From: Terriglobia bacterium
GTDB taxonomy: Bacteria; Acidobacteriota; Terriglobia; Acidiferrales; UBA7541
Reading direction: 5' to 3'
Length of the DNA: 64,000 nt
Assembly (NCBI GenBank): GCA_020073605.1
Contig: JAIQEW010000005.1
Coordinates: forward strand, 248,001 to 312,000
Shown here: positions 19,383 through 26,395 of the stretch, piece by piece
Layout of the letters: the number at the start of each line of letters is the position of its first letter
How positions within the stretch are numbered: the first letter of the stretch is position 1
Translations under genes and position numbers: made by a program
The notes under the pieces: model-generated
Databases searched by the model: none
The model's input: the letters and a program-made list of their open reading frames with translations, nothing else
Told to the model about the DNA's origin: nothing

Positions 19383-19412
19383 ATGATGCATCTGAATGTG
19401 AAGGTGCATCAT
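19383..19412 (+). promoter_or_regulatory. Inverted repeat covering the start codon of the IS passenger gene
   Basis: ATGATGCA (19383-19390) and TGCATCAT (19405-19412) are perfect 8-bp arms. In RNA the stem extends to 10 bp with one U-G pair (19383-19392 with 19403-19412) and a 10-base loop. The right arm contains the AAGG-like ribosome site edge and the first two bases of the start codon at 19411. Either a translational lock or a protein operator. Confidence 0.5.
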
Positions 19413-20214
19413 GAAGGGATGCACTCTCTTGGAACTCCTGCGCTTTTACGCTGAAGCCTATCTTCGGCTTGCGAAGGAACTGCAAGACTTAGAAATGTGC
19501 CTCTATGCCGATAGACTTGAAAACGTTCATGCTGGAAAAGAAGAATCGGTTCTCCATGAACCAGAACACGCGAAGTTGGTATTAATTAGCGCGAAAATGT
19601 CGTGTGAGAAGATTGGGTTACAAGTGTCCGCTGTTCATGCTGGAGAATTGTTGACTTCCGTTGCACGCAAGCGCCTGACTTCGAGCGATGTGAAAGCTCT
19701 CCATGAAAACATTGATCGGGAGTTGAGCTGTCATTTCTTTGTCGGAATATCAGAAGATCGAAAAGCCTTTTACTGTGAAAGTCTCAAGGGGTGGGAGGAA
19801 ATCACCGCGAAGTTTCCAGAAGCAACGGAAGATATAGAAGAAATGAATAAGTGTTTCGCGCTCTGCCGATATTCAGCGGCAGTCTTTCACTCCCTTCTCG
19901 TAATAGAACATGGCTTGGTTAAGTTCGGAAATCTGTTGGGGGTGATCGATCCGAAGGTAGGTTGGGATGCAAGTTATAGAAAGCTAGAATCAATCGTCAA
20001 CGCTGGCAGGAATGAAAATAAGACTGGCCTAGAATTCAGTTCGCTTGAGCAATTGAATGTTTGCGTTCAGGCCATGAAATTGGCGTGGCGCAATAAAGTA
20101 GATCATGCCGCTGGGAAACCTCAAGTAATGGGTGGTGGATTTGCGCCTTATGTAGCAGAAGAAATCATTTCTACGACCCGTGGGTTCATGCGCCGATTGT
20201 CAGAAATTTCTTGA
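19411..20214 (+). CDS. IS passenger: unknown 267-residue protein with an R-x4-H motif
   Basis: I do not recognise the family. The protein is soluble, alpha-helical by pattern and has no signal peptide. Near the C-terminus R227-NKVD-H232 (WRNKVDHAAGKP) fits the R-x4-6-H motif of HEPN ribonucleases, and the helical context (VCVQAMKLAWRNKVDHA) is right for it. The motif is short, so the assignment is tentative. Codon use is AT-richer than in chromosomal genes around it. It lies inside the IS, on the strand opposite to the transposase, with its start codon in a hairpin. Its end is 10 bases from the convergent 95-residue gene. A toxin or defence role is a guess from the motif. Confidence 0.75.
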   Translation: MKGCTLLELLRFYAEAYLRLAKELQDLEMCLYADRLENVHAGKEESVLHEPEHAKLVLISAKMSCEKIGLQVSAVHAGELLTSVARKRLTSSDVKALHENIDRELSCHFFVGISEDRKAFYCESLKGWEEITAKFPEATEDIEEMNKCFALCRYSAAVFHSLLVIEHGLVKFGNLLGVIDPKVGWDASYRKLESIVNAGRNENKTGLEFSSLEQLNVCVQAMKLAWRNKVDHAAGKPQVMGGGFAPYVAEEIISTTRGFMRRLSEIS

Positions 20215-20548: not shown

Positions 20549-20686
20549 ATGACGCGAACGAACAAGGAACTAAAACCCAGGGAAGAAACGCAGAAGAAGA
20601 TGCATGGTATCACGCGCACGGGATTCCACGCTCTGTTACGGAAAGCCTCTAAACCTGCCTCGAAGCCCTCTCCAAGATCGACCTGA
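20549..20686 (+). CDS. Possible 45-residue protein inside the IS
   Basis: A short frame begins MTRTNKELKPREETQKKMHG and ends in a Lys/Pro/Ser-rich tail (ASKPASKPSPRST). It is very basic. It starts 36 bases from the divergent 95-residue gene and runs over the 3' end of the transposase gene on the other strand. The composition looks protein-like, but the ribosome site is weak. Confidence 0.35.
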   Translation: MTRTNKELKPREETQKKMHGITRTGFHALLRKASKPASKPSPRST

Positions 20687-21587
20687 ATTGCTGGTTTCCC
20701 ATGTGCCGCCTGTTGTACCGGAAGCAGTATTCATCCAAGTAGGTCTGCAAATACTCCGGCGAAACCGAGTGATAGACTCCGCCTATTCCGCGCTTGATTA
20801 GGCTCCAAAGTCCCTCAACGCTGTTGGTATGGATGTGGCCTTGAACGTAGATTCTCCGATCATGCTTGATTGTGTAGTGGCGGAATTTGGCGGGTTTGCG
20901 ATCACTGGTACGCATTGTCCCGATACCGTCATAGCTGCGGTGTTGGTCGGTGTAAATTGTGCTTCCGGGCAGGACGTGCTTGCGAATCTGCTTCAGCAAG
21001 GTAGAGCCTTTCACGTCTTTGACTACCTTGGCGACTACCAAGCCTTTGCGTTGCACGATGCCGATAACAGGGGTTTTCTTCTTATCCCCGCGCATCGGTC
21101 TGCCAGTTCCGTACTTACGGACCCCGCCGTAGTACATTTCATCTACCTCGACCGTTGGTCCCTCCAATTGCAGATCGCCTTCTGACAACAGACTGCGGAC
21201 CTGCTTGAAGATGCGCCATGCGGTTTTGTAGGTGACGCCAGTCTCGCGCTGGACCTGCTTTGCGGAGATGCCACAGCGTGTAGAACCCATGAGATACATG
21301 GCATAGAACCAAGTTTTGAGCGGGGTGCTGGACTTCTCGAAGATAGTCCCCGCCAGCGGATAGATGTGGGAGCCGCAGGACTGGCACGCATACGCGGTAC
21401 GATTGCCAACGCGATAGTGCTTAGTCGATTTGCGGCACTTCGCGCAGGGAGCCATGCCGTTCGGCCAGCGTTGCTCTTTGATGTATTCCAAGCACGCTGA
21501 ATCGTTGGGAAACTCGTTATTGAAGTCCCGCATTGAATAGCGTAGTTCTGCGGGTATGTGCTGCTTAACTTTGCCGTCGTTTGCCAT
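20649..21587 (-). CDS. IS1595-family transposase (ISXO2-like)
   Basis: 312 residues, full length for the family. Order of parts: an N-terminal zinc ribbon (C48-x2-C51 and C68-x2-C71), a helix-turn-helix (about 105-130, SAKQVQRETGVTYKTAWRIF), then the DDE-type catalytic core. D149 is in VEVDEMYYGG, D214 in IYTDQHRSY, and N255/E258 in HTNSVEGLWS. The IS1595 core typically ends in N or E at this place. The gene begins 60 bases inside the right end of the element. No frameshift or stop, so the enzyme should be functional. Confidence 0.93.
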   Translation of the reverse strand: MANDGKVKQHIPAELRYSMRDFNNEFPNDSACLEYIKEQRWPNGMAPCAKCRKSTKHYRVGNRTAYACQSCGSHIYPLAGTIFEKSSTPLKTWFYAMYLMGSTRCGISAKQVQRETGVTYKTAWRIFKQVRSLLSEGDLQLEGPTVEVDEMYYGGVRKYGTGRPMRGDKKKTPVIGIVQRKGLVVAKVVKDVKGSTLLKQIRKHVLPGSTIYTDQHRSYDGIGTMRTSDRKPAKFRHYTIKHDRRIYVQGHIHTNSVEGLWSLIKRGIGGVYHSVSPEYLQTYLDEYCFRYNRRHMGNQQFRSILERASRQV

Positions 21588-21646: not shown

Positions 21647-21654
21647 CCAAGCCT
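21647..21654. repeat. Target-site duplication, right copy (CCAAGCCT)
   Basis: Exact copy of 19317-19324, directly outside the right inverted repeat. Confidence 0.9.
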
Positions 21655-21709
21655 TTACTTTCGCTTTCTATTCGCCTACCATCGTAATCGTTCTCGACAG
21701 CAAGCCACC

Positions 21710-22330
21710 ATGATCTCTCCCGCCAGCCCGACATGCGCAGACGTCACTAATTCCCCAGCGCCGTGGGTGCTGCCCGGATCGGGCCTCTCCGTATTTTATG
21801 GCCGGCCGGAAGCGCCCCGGCTTTCGCACTACTTTTTGCCGCGCGTCTTGCTGAGCGGCAGGCGCGTGCTGTACGTGGATGGGGCAAACCGCTTCGATCC
21901 GCTGCTCCTGGCGCGAATGGCTCGCCAGCGAGGACGAACGCCAGCCGAGTTTTACGAGCGGGTGCGCGTGGCGCGGGCCTTCACCTGTTTTCAACTGACC
22001 GAGCTGCTGGGCCGCGTGCCGCGCCTTCTTGCCGGATTTACCGCCGAGGCCCTGATCGTCACCGGACTGCCGGAGTTGTACTTCGATGAAGATGTGCACG
22101 AGCGCGAAGCGCGGGTTTCCTTTCGCCGCGCGCTTACTGCGCTTGGCGCGTTGCGTTCTCTGCCTTTGGGCATCGCGCTTTTTTCCGACGCCACATCGTT
22201 TCAAACGCCGCGGCGCGGGATGTTCCGCGATCTGACCTCGCAGGCTTCGCATATTTGGCACTTCGATCTCGATAGCGACGGCAAGCTGCGCCTCCTGGGC
22301 GAAAAAGCGGCGCTGCCACTTCCGGCGTGA
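21710..22330 (+). CDS. Degenerate RecA/Rad55-like ATPase fold protein
   Basis: Start at the ATG at 21710 (MISPASPTC); the frame also runs on upstream into the IS, which cannot be coding. The body has a RecA-core layout. A G-x-P-containing loop is at residues about 33-44 (FYGRPEAPRLSHYF), where Walker A should be but with no GKT. Next are VLYVDGANRFDPLLLARMA (about 53-71) as in the RecA/KaiC Walker A-distal strand, then LIVTGLPELYFDEDV in the Walker B position. Nucleotide binding is therefore doubtful. It starts a three-gene operon with a small protein (10 bases on) and a family B polymerase. By analogy with ImuA, a RecA-like protein that serves an error-prone polymerase, it may be an accessory factor. 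That is inference. Confidence 0.7.
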   Translation: MISPASPTCADVTNSPAPWVLPGSGLSVFYGRPEAPRLSHYFLPRVLLSGRRVLYVDGANRFDPLLLARMARQRGRTPAEFYERVRVARAFTCFQLTELLGRVPRLLAGFTAEALIVTGLPELYFDEDVHEREARVSFRRALTALGALRSLPLGIALFSDATSFQTPRRGMFRDLTSQASHIWHFDLDSDGKLRLLGEKAALPLPA

Positions 22331-22339
22331 GGATTCGTC

Positions 22340-22684
22340 ATGGGCCGCACACTCCCCACCTTTGTCCAGTTAGTCGAAGAAGCGGCCCAGAAATGGCGGA
22401 AGTTTCGCCGCGCCTTGCGGCGCGAAGACCAGGAACACTTTGACCGGCTGTTTCATCGCGTCCGCTGCTACACGCAAGCGGCGACGTACCAGTGCAACGA
22501 CAACCCGATGGAAGCCATTCTGCTTTCCATTGCACTAGACCAAGAGAAGCGGATTGCGACGCTCGAAAGATTGGCAGGGTGCGAACATGCGTCTCACGGG
22601 ATGGATTCTCGACCTTTACCCTTGCCCGCAGGGGATGACGCTCTGGCTGCTGACCCCGAACCAGACCACACACAAACTGACTGA
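22340..22684 (+). CDS. Small unknown protein between the RecA-like and PolB genes
   Basis: 114 residues starting MGRTLPTFVQLVEEAAQKW, helical and rich in Arg and Glu for the first 80 residues, then a low-complexity acidic/proline tail. It begins 10 bases after the RecA-like gene and its last 98 bases overlap the polymerase gene in another frame. The helical N-terminal part looks like a real folded protein; the tail may be present only because it overlaps. No family recognised. Position suggests it is part of the polymerase machinery. Confidence 0.7.
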   Translation: MGRTLPTFVQLVEEAAQKWRKFRRALRREDQEHFDRLFHRVRCYTQAATYQCNDNPMEAILLSIALDQEKRIATLERLAGCEHASHGMDSRPLPLPAGDDALAADPEPDHTQTD

Positions 22685-24773
22685 CGACTCTTTCCGGCCT
22701 TCGTTCTACGTCCATGCGGACGAATCTGCGTTGCAGCAGCTTGCTCACATAATCCCAGGTCGGTTCCGCGCAGACTGCCGCCGAATAGAACGCACGGACA
22801 TTTGGCAAGCGCAGCCGATCCGAACGCTCGAAATCGCCGTGCACAACCCGATGCTCTTTCGTTCGGTGGTCCATTTTGCCCAGAGCGTGGATGCCGACGC
22901 GCGTCTCTATAACTCCGACCTGATGCTCGCGTCTCTGTACTGCTGGGAGCGGAACCTGTTTCCGCTGGCGCGCGTGGAAGCGGACGTTGATGAAGAGGGA
23001 CGAATTCTCGGCCTTGCCTGTGTGGACGATCCCTGGGCGCTCGACTACGAGTTGCCGCCGCTCCGGATCATGGAGATGAGGCTGGCGGGCCTCTCGCACG
23101 TCAACCCGGCCCACGGGCGGAGGGGCGCTCTCGAAGTCGAGATCGACGGCGAGGCTCACTCGCTCGACGATTCCGACATACCCGCTGCTGAAAACTTCGC
23201 CCGGCTGCTGAAACGATACGATCCCGATCTTCTTCTCACCGACTGGGGCGACTCGGCGGTGTTGCCGCACCTGCTTCAGCAGGCGGAACGCTGCCGCATC
23301 CGGCTCCCGTTGAACCGCGACTCTTTGCCTATCCAGCAGAGCCGCGGGCGCAGCTACATGAGTTACGGGCGGATTCTGTTCAAGGAATCAGCCACGACGC
23401 TTTTCGGCCGCCTGCACGTGGACGGCTCGAACTCTTTCATGGCCAGCAAGTGCGAACTCGCGGGGCTGTGGGAGTTCGCGCGCGTGACGAAGCTGCCCAT
23501 CCAGTACGCCACGCGGACGACGGCCGGCACGGGCATTTCCTACATGCAAATGGAGCTTGCCTGGCGCGACGGCGTGCTCATCCCGGCGCAGAAGGCGGAG
23601 CCGGAGGATCTGAAGACGCCGGATGAGCTGCTCTGCGCGGATCGCGGCGGCCTCGTCTTCACGCCGAAGATCGGCTTCCACGAGAACGTGGCGGAACTTG
23701 ATTTCGTCAGCGAGTACCCGAGCATCATGGCCAGATTCAACATCTCGCCGGAGACGGTGAACTGCCACTGCTGCCCGGATACGCCGCGCGTTCCCGAGCT
23801 GGGCTACCGTATCTGCCAGAAGCGGCGGGGCATCACCAGCCGCGTCGTCGAACGGCTGATTGCGAAACGCACCGCGCTGAAGCGGCTCCAGCGCGCCGCC
23901 ACAGGAGACGCGGCGCAGCGGTACAAATTGCAAAGGGACTCGCTCAAGTGGCTGCTGGTCTGCTGCTTCGGGTACACCGGCTACAAGAACGCTCGATTCG
24001 GAAAGATCGAGGCCCACGAAGCCATCAACGCCGTCGCGCGTGAAACGCTTCTGGTCGCCAAAGAGATTGCAGAGGGCCAGGGCTACGAACTTCTGCACGC
24101 CCTCGTGGATTCGATGTACGTCCGGAAACCGGGCGCCACGCCGGAGGACTACGAAAGGCTCGCGCAGGAAATCGAGACGAAAACCAATCTGCCGATGGCA
24201 GTCGAGTCCGTCTACCGCTACGTTGTATTCCTGGCTTCGAAGCAGTATGCGGATGTGCCTGTGCCGAATCGTTTCTTTGCCGTCGGCGGCGCGGACGGAT
24301 TGAAAGTGCGAGGCCTCGAACTGCGCCGGCACGATACGCCGCCGATCGTATCCCGAATGCAGCACGAAGTTTTGGAAATCCTGGCCGAAGCGAGCGATTA
24401 CGAGACCTACTGCCGGAAGCTCGAAGATGCTCAAAGAGTGCTCGATCGTTATCTGGAGCGTGTGGAAGAGGGCAGCGCCACGGTGGAGGAGTTGGTGATC
24501 AGCAAGCGAATCACGAAGCCGCCCCGCGACTACGAGAAGGCCAGTGTCGTTGCCATCGCCGCGCAGCAACTGTATGGACACGGCGTGAGGCTGCGGCCCG
24601 GGCAAACCATCGAATACGTCATCACGGATGCGGACAATCGTGTCCCGAACGATCGCGTTCGCGCATACGCGCTATGGGAAGGATGGCGGGGATACGACCG
24701 GGGAAAATATCAGGAGATGGTGCGCGAGGCGTTTGCGCCGTTCGAGCAGTTCGTGCGCTCGTTTATCCGCTGA
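22587..24773 (+). CDS. Family B DNA polymerase, probably without proofreading
   Basis: Start set at the ATG at 22587 (MRLTGWILDLYPCPQGMTLW), with AGGG upstream, giving 728 residues. Polymerase motif A is D372-FVSEYPSIM, where the usual SLYPS reads SEYPS. Motif B is around K454 (KWLLVCCFGYTGYKNARFG). Motif C is HALVDSMYV with D508 in the essential second Asp position, the first Asp being replaced by Leu. The N-terminal half has the exonuclease-domain position, but no DxE Exo I motif is visible there and the Exo II region keeps only DWGD near residue 219. Loss of proofreading is inferred. It resembles archaeal-type PolB and not E. coli PolII closely. With the RecA-like gene in front, a translesion or repair polymerase is plausible. 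Confidence 0.88.
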   Translation: MRLTGWILDLYPCPQGMTLWLLTPNQTTHKLTDDSFRPSFYVHADESALQQLAHIIPGRFRADCRRIERTDIWQAQPIRTLEIAVHNPMLFRSVVHFAQSVDADARLYNSDLMLASLYCWERNLFPLARVEADVDEEGRILGLACVDDPWALDYELPPLRIMEMRLAGLSHVNPAHGRRGALEVEIDGEAHSLDDSDIPAAENFARLLKRYDPDLLLTDWGDSAVLPHLLQQAERCRIRLPLNRDSLPIQQSRGRSYMSYGRILFKESATTLFGRLHVDGSNSFMASKCELAGLWEFARVTKLPIQYATRTTAGTGISYMQMELAWRDGVLIPAQKAEPEDLKTPDELLCADRGGLVFTPKIGFHENVAELDFVSEYPSIMARFNISPETVNCHCCPDTPRVPELGYRICQKRRGITSRVVERLIAKRTALKRLQRAATGDAAQRYKLQRDSLKWLLVCCFGYTGYKNARFGKIEAHEAINAVARETLLVAKEIAEGQGYELLHALVDSMYVRKPGATPEDYERLAQEIETKTNLPMAVESVYRYVVFLASKQYADVPVPNRFFAVGGADGLKVRGLELRRHDTPPIVSRMQHEVLEILAEASDYETYCRKLEDAQRVLDRYLERVEEGSATVEELVISKRITKPPRDYEKASVVAIAAQQLYGHGVRLRPGQTIEYVITDADNRVPNDRVRAYALWEGWRGYDRGKYQEMVREAFAPFEQFVRSFIR

Positions 24774-25127: not shown

Positions 25128-25502
25128 GTGTCTGAAAAGAAGCGCGGGCAGAAGACGGACCAAGCCGATGGGGTCGTGCGGATAGCTTATCCGCGTGGCG
25201 ATCTTGAAGCCTATATCAAAGCGATTGAACGCGGACAACACGAGGCCGTCGAGGAACTTGATCGTGTTAATGAGAATCGGAAGGGTAAACGCAAGCTGCG
25301 CCTGCCAATAGAAGTGTCGTTTCTCGACGCGGCCGGAAACAAAGAGTTCACCTTCTCCACTTCCGGCAGTCCACCACCAGAGGTGTACTTCGAAAGAGGG
25401 CTAAGCACTGCCGACCTTCCCAACTTCGCTTATGTGGTCGCAACGGACGGCAGGGAAAAAATCGTCATTCGCATCGAGTTTGAAGATGCCGTTGTGCAAT
25501 GA
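25128..25502 (+). CDS. Island gene 1: unknown 124-residue protein
   Basis: Starts with GTG after a GAGG ribosome site (GAGGTAGGAC-GTG). The N-terminus is Lys-rich (MSEKKRGQKTDQ). After that come a charged helical part and a C-terminal strand-rich segment (FAYVVATDGREKIVIRIEF). No signal peptide or membrane segment. Family not recognised. It is followed after 68 bases by island gene 2 on the same strand, so the two may form an operon. A small regulatory or antitoxin-like protein is possible from size and position only. Confidence 0.65.
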   Translation: MSEKKRGQKTDQADGVVRIAYPRGDLEAYIKAIERGQHEAVEELDRVNENRKGKRKLRLPIEVSFLDAAGNKEFTFSTSGSPPPEVYFERGLSTADLPNFAYVVATDGREKIVIRIEFEDAVVQ

Positions 25503-25570: not shown

Positions 25571-26395
25571 ATGAGCTGGACAGATCGATTCGATGACATT
25601 CATACCCTGAGGATGTTTGTTGATGTTTGCCAAGCGGGCTTGTCAAGCGCTTTGCATGCAACCCGGGTAGTTGATGTATTGAAAGATAGTCATGAGAAAT
25701 ATGGCAAGCCGGAGCGATTTGCGTCGGACGAGTATTACCGTGCAGCGAAGAAACAGGCGGAGAGGGAACAGATATTTGCCAGTGACCAGGAATCGAAAGG
25801 CTTCACATACCTTTATGGTCTAGCTTCAATAAAACTCTGGAGCATTCTCGAATCGACGATCGACGATGTCGCGTTGGAATGCGTTCTGAGCCCTGAGAAA
25901 TGTAGCGACGGAAAGCTGCTAGCGGGATTAAAAGGGCCACTCCTAGAGTTTTTCACATCGTCTCCTGATGAACGTGCAGAACTTCTCGTTCGGCAGTTGA
26001 AACAAGACGTTAGGTCAAGCATGCAAAAAGGAATAGGACGGTACGAAGCGATTCTCGCGCCATTGGGTGTCGAAGGTGCCGTTCCCGACGCGGTGCGACG
26101 GGTGATATTCGAACTCGCGGAGGTGCGAAATGTCCTTGTGCATCGTCGAGGATTTGCTGATAAGCGATTCGTTTCGAGTTGTCCGTGGTTTGGTGCCACT
26201 CTAAATAACGAGTTGCCACTGAAGGAAGAACACTTCCTCCGTTACGAACTCGCGGTGAGCTGTTACCTTCTCGAAATAGATTTGCGCTTTCGTCGCCGGG
26301 ACCATCCTCCTGATTTCGAACCAGAGACGAAAAATGACGTCATCAACCTGAGGGATGAACTGCTAAAGAGGCTCGAAGGCGCACTTGCGCAATAG
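25571..26395 (+). CDS. Island gene 2: unknown protein with HEPN-like RNxxxH motif
   Basis: 274 residues, soluble, helix-rich. R186-NVLV-H191 within FELAEVRNVLVHRRGFADKRF matches the R-N-x3-H form of the HEPN ribonuclease motif, and the preceding helix with E-V-R-N is in the expected context. The N-terminal half contains LYGLASIKLWSILES, like the first long helix of such folds. HEPN proteins serve as ribonuclease toxins in toxin-antitoxin, abortive infection and CRISPR systems. Whether this one is active is not shown. It follows island gene 1 and may pair with it. Overall similarity to a named family cannot be claimed. Confidence 0.7.
   Translation: MSWTDRFDDIHTLRMFVDVCQAGLSSALHATRVVDVLKDSHEKYGKPERFASDEYYRAAKKQAEREQIFASDQESKGFTYLYGLASIKLWSILESTIDDVALECVLSPEKCSDGKLLAGLKGPLLEFFTSSPDERAELLVRQLKQDVRSSMQKGIGRYEAILAPLGVEGAVPDAVRRVIFELAEVRNVLVHRRGFADKRFVSSCPWFGATLNNELPLKEEHFLRYELAVSCYLLEIDLRFRRRDHPPDFEPETKNDVINLRDELLKRLEGALAQ

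Follow-up and report, generated by a model that had tools for sequence, protein, structure and literature searches.

What three-gene system is encoded on the forward strand at 21710-24773 of a 64,000-nucleotide stretch of DNA (hereafter the window) from a Terriglobia bacterium, and is it a new one? The window corresponds to bases 248001-312000 of contig 23, within a 3.66 Mb genome. The nearest relatives with a name belong to the Acidobacteriota; one of them, a Candidatus Acidiferrales genome, has a PolB2 that is 79% identical. A previous reading of these letters (the original prediction) described a cassette made of a degenerate RecA-like protein, a small protein and a B-family polymerase. All three open reading frames (ORFs) were indeed found at this place and on this strand; the reported overlap between the last two genes is real (98 bases), and the spacing between the first two is 9 bases, not 10. 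With high confidence, we assign the cassette to the bacterial PolB2 mutasome operons (iRadA-PPB2-PolB2), and thus to a kind already described.

Components of the cassette

The polymerase matches PF00136 (E = 6e-30) and, over residues 6-722, the NCBIfam model PRK05761.1-2 (398 bits); its AlphaFold2 model (pLDDT 83) has archaeal PolB proteins as best Foldseek matches. The two catalytic aspartates that the original prediction had listed are correctly placed and invariant in an alignment of 24 sequences, namely D372 in motif A (LDFVSEYPSIM) and D508 in motif C (ALVDSMY). What had gone unmentioned is that motif C reads L506-V507-D508, i.e. LVD in place of DxD, with the first Asp replaced by Leu506 and the second one kept. 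The D(K/R) motif is D352-R353 in the window, D352 being invariant in the 24 sequences and followed by K or R; it was equated with Sulfolobus D253-K254 through its position relative to motif C, the alignment holding no archaeal PolB2.

The predicted lack of an exonuclease DxE motif is also borne out. Position counting and alignments including the Deep Vent and Pyrococcus abyssi polymerases place W220 and V225 at the Exo II Asn and Asp, respectively. The tripeptide D153-Y-E155 was considered as an Exo I site and rejected as a chance DxE, being unconserved among relatives in the 24-sequence alignment. Judging from these residues, the 3'-5' exonuclease site of the polymerase (Exo I and Exo II) is lost.

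For iRadA, the direct match to Pfam Rad51 (residues 52-124, E = 9e-4) falls below the cut-off, and a profile built from 23 sequences retrieves Pyrococcus RadA from the PDB (E = 1e-10). Its AlphaFold2 model is confident (pLDDT 87), and the 50 Foldseek matches listed are all RadA or Rad51. The description as RecA-like holds in part: the core is devoid of a P-loop, as had been proposed, and a RadA/Rad51-type naming is more precise. The possibility of a recA duplicate recognizable by the RecA family model was rejected, as a genome search with that model returned the true recA only. The loss of Walker A was rightly called. Indeed, a pattern search of iRadA detected no GxxxxGK[S/T], and a four-residue turn in the model joins strand 25-30 to helix 35-48 where the P-loop would be expected. 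The N-terminal helical domain and the ATPase residues are both missing, and the RadA/Rad51 core is present. As modelled, iRadA is therefore a RadA/Rad51-type core without an ATP-binding loop, archaeal-type rather than RecA-type.

The small protein, PPB2, has no Pfam, NCBIfam or PDB match and no solved relative by sequence. Across 23 sequences from Acidobacteriota, Elusimicrobia and Ignavibacteriae, its MGRT start and residues T7, W19, F22, R24, L26, R27 and R42 are invariant; the window copy displays this diagnostic MGRT motif with the conserved Arg3.

The 98-base overlap between PPB2 and polB2 seems characteristic of the lineage. Overlaps of 98 or 104 bases were found in all 14 Acidobacteriota loci measured, versus values of -449 to +26 bases in six loci of other phyla; some polB2 starts in this set were inferred by homology, because those loci have no common start codon, and the overlaps there carry the same assumption. 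For pairs encoding the same residue, identity at third codon positions reaches 0.67 in the overlap versus 0.38-0.55 in downstream windows. This raised synonymous conservation is consistent with a double coding constraint, and translation-initiation signals could contribute to it. This lineage-specific overlap is new relative to the published PolB2 operon.

Linkage and published relatives

The co-occurrence of the three genes, proposed as a check, extends well beyond this strain: the order iRadA-PPB2-PolB2 on a single strand holds for the window and, among the 24 named loci whose upstream sequence is long enough, for 22, from three phyla. This count includes L024, where a contig end cuts iRadA, and L016, where a single open frame holds both iRadA and PPB2. 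The two exceptions are Nitrospirae loci, and in one of them (L041) the upstream region is masked. Together with the absence of an intact exonuclease site and of a normal ATP-binding loop, this linkage upholds the mutasome-like logic with a B-family polymerase that had been put forward.

PolB2 itself is clearly patchy among relatives, being present in 16 of the 61 genomes searched, many of them incomplete. Neighbours known from the published operon recur among the relatives: a DUF72 gene precedes it in L015 and L018 and is close by in L037; SRAP is encoded beside it in L035, and LexA directly upstream in L032 and L036. Separately, an open frame in another locus (L010:3-2564) fuses iRadA-like sequence to PolB2 from residue 59 onward, without PPB2; it may reflect a deletion or a misassembly, as that genome holds several PolB2 fragments.

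The suggestion that the module might be undescribed did not survive comparison with the literature. The operon was noted in 2013-2014, with the survey of Makarova et al. (2014) connecting PolB2 to arCOG07300 and to an inactivated RadA, both in archaea and in several bacteria, and to lexA in some cases (PMC4104785); the bacterial polymerases were named group G2 in a 2020 survey (PMC7544198); and Timinskas et al. (2025) introduced the names PPB2 and iRadA, described both the MGRT arm and the D(K/R) motif, and found iRadA-PPB2-PolB2 as the only gene order in bacteria (PMC11791011), the sole match of a literature search on iRadA and PPB2. The same authors modelled the complex as a heteropentamer with a PPB2 trimer and drew a comparison to the Pol V mutasome. 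A 2026 survey gives the same assignment (PMC12926913). The archaeal PolB2 has been assayed, and is an active, non-proofreading extender and a robust polymerase even without the first motif-C Asp (PMC8764526). Acidobacteriota are not named in the main texts of the PolB2 studies examined here.

Several observations weigh against assigning the cassette to this family. The closest NCBIfam model, PRK05761.1-2, scores under its cut-off of 516. A simple pattern search saw no canonical beta-clamp motif in iRadA, PPB2 or PolB2, such motifs being reported for only some PolB2 complexes (PMC11791011). One Nitrospiria locus (L031) has PolB2 and no detectable iRadA or PPB2 within approximately 5 kb. Finally, the published PolB2 literature examined reports no assay of a bacterial PolB2, and the structures predicted here are single chains rather than a complex.

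A putative SOS box before iRadA

Regulation was approached by reading the regions upstream of the relatives' iRadA alongside those of the genome's own lexA and recA. A putative box emerged, a direct repeat TTCGC-N6-TTCGCC with an 11-base period, located 50 bases before iRadA; no gapped palindrome upstream of iRadA was common to the Acidobacteriota loci. Exact matches to TTNGCTTTNNNTTCGCC number four across the 3.66 Mb genome: three precede lexA (C17:15087), recA (C17:35633) and iRadA (window position 21660), and the fourth is a site at C21:172262 not assigned to a gene. The pattern TTNGCTNTTNNTTCGCC has exactly two, before lexA and recA, and its reversed control none. As the pattern was picked after these promoters had been viewed, such genome counts describe rather than test it. 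With one mismatch allowed, it is no commoner than its reversed control (9 versus 9), and weak matches were accordingly left uncounted.

Independent support comes from beyond this genome: an exact, longer match exists in 25 of 41 family genomes, versus none of the 41 for the reversed control. Among 30 family sites examined, eight precede lexA (one of them in this genome) and one an iRadA-PPB2-PolB2 operon; others precede genes whose translations, judged by reading, resemble DinB-like polymerases and uracil-DNA glycosylases. Of 19 Acidobacteriota loci, 17 carry the box ahead of iRadA, as compared with 0.34% of mononucleotide-shuffled upstream regions. Since the box before iRadA is common to lexA and recA, there is good indirect evidence for SOS control of the operon. 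We infer that LexA binds the box, that damage induces the operon and that its products are active in this organism. A putative promoter box common to lexA, recA and iRadA is a new detail for the PolB2 operon. Two near-matches (C5:6602-6651) also lie before a response-regulator-like gene, and in several relatives the box is followed by similar genes.

Function and alternative readings

Most likely, the complex is induced by damage and extends mispaired primer ends beyond lesions. DNA damage would lead to cleavage of LexA, free the direct-repeat box before iRadA and allow the three proteins to be made together. PolB2, lacking a proofreading site, would bind the ATPase-dead RadA homologue via a Rad51-type oligomerization motif, and the MGRT arm of one PPB2 subunit would reach the polymerase cleft near DNA. 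The complex would then extend mismatched or lesion-opposed primer ends, another polymerase, e.g. the genome's single Y-family enzyme, plausibly inserting a base beforehand. In this scheme, the architecture of the complex (models) and the extender activity (archaeal enzyme) come from the papers cited; gene content, order, motifs, the folds of two proteins, linkage and the common promoter box are established here.

A catalytically inactive polymerase in a structural or regulatory complex, an idea put forward for this family in 2008 and 2014 (see PMC2527604), is very unlikely. The Leu506 substitution and the lost exonuclease site could suggest it; however, D372 and D508 never vary in the 24 sequences aligned, the purified archaeal enzyme polymerizes robustly without the same motif-C Asp (PMC8764526), and primer-independent PolBs without it are active too (PMC7544198).

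Slightly less probable still is repair of double-strand breaks coupled to recombination, with the RadA homologue loading the polymerase at recombination intermediates. The fold of iRadA and the promoter box common with recA are compatible with it, but with neither P-loop nor N-terminal domain, iRadA cannot work as an ATP-driven recombinase; published models make it a subunit of the polymerase complex (PMC11791011), and the ORFs of the window place no nuclease, helicase or end-joining gene within the operon. The break-repair role suggested in the original prediction thus finds no support in our results.

Least probable of all is a decaying, non-functional acquired cassette, which the patchy occurrence of PolB2 and an IS1595-family transposase gene directly upstream (a DUF72 gene being there in L015) might evoke, and against which stand three open frames, conserved catalytic residues and MGRT, and a promoter box in place.

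Damage-induced primer extension by a PolB2 mutasome remains our preferred reading. The genome contains a single Y-family match and a single DnaE match, neither inside the cassette; hence there is no sign of UmuC, ImuB or DnaE2, and the genome appears to lack both Pol V and ImuB-DnaE2. Bacterial PolB2 complexes have so far been predicted in silico, and a copy whose promoter is of the SOS type, in such a genome and in a soil phylum that is widespread, would offer a concrete, testable case for damage-induced B-family mutagenesis outside archaea. The putative regulon box could in turn provide a practical handle on damage-induced mutagenesis by PolB2. More tentatively, and with rather more doubt than belief, the Acidobacteriota mutasome might be a distinct form, combining a conserved PPB2 C-terminal tail encoded in a second frame (for translation coupling or an added contact) with a role as the principal error-prone polymerase of the SOS response, governed by a divergent LexA box of direct-repeat type and working with a co-induced DinB-like inserter.

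Locus and neighbourhood

Table 1. Features of the PolB2 locus in the window.
Feature	Position	Strand	Remarks
Putative LexA/SOS box (TTCGCTTTCTATTCGCC, 21660-21676) overlapping likely promoter (TTTACT ... TACCAT)	21651..21687	+	promoter assigned by eye
iRadA (RadA/Rad51 fold, without ATP-binding loop)	21710..22330	+	206 aa from ATG
PPB2 small protein, N-terminus MGRTLPTF	22340..22684	+	114 aa
PolB2 (bacterial G2), B-family polymerase	22587..24773	+	728 aa
PPB2 tail/polB2 start, out-of-frame overlap	22587..22684	+	98 bases

The transposase gene (ISXO2-like, 20649-21587, reverse strand) begins some 70 bases before the putative SOS box, which appears intact; the close relative L015 has its DUF72 gene in the same position. 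Inverted repeats marking the ends of the element were sought, and no convincing ones were seen. The ORFs adjoining the cassette (19411-20214, 25128-25502 and 25571-26395) have no Pfam match.

Comparison with known systems

The closest system is the PolB2 mutasome (PMC11791011, PMC4104785), with which the cassette shares the three components, the bacterial gene order, the MGRT arm, the D(K/R) motif, the motif-C substitution and dead exonuclease and ATPase sites; the DUF72, SRAP and LexA neighbours recur in the window's relatives. It differs through the 98-base PPB2-polB2 overlap and longer PPB2 tail of Acidobacteriota, and the window copy has no adjoining lexA or DUF72 and no clear clamp motif. 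Sulfolobus islandicus Dpo2 (PMC8764526, PMC7390963) likewise has no proofreading, lacks the first motif-C Asp, and is associated with RadA-like and small partner genes and with DNA damage, but is archaeal and not under LexA. As for the box, it shares its 11-base period and TTC core with the LexA box of Acidobacterium capsulatum (Mazon et al. 2006, as cited in PMC3323433), whereas the flanking letters differ (TTCGC-N6-TTCGCC here).

An identity with ImuA-ImuB-DnaE2 was considered and rejected, as the Y-family ImuB and C-family DnaE2 are absent from the cassette. The likeness to this system and to UmuD'2C-RecA (Pol V) is one of organization: in each, a helper of the RecA/Rad51 family and an accessory subunit accompany an error-prone polymerase, under SOS control that is predicted for the cassette, whereas their polymerases belong to families C or Y, their small subunits are non-homologous and their helper is RecA-type.
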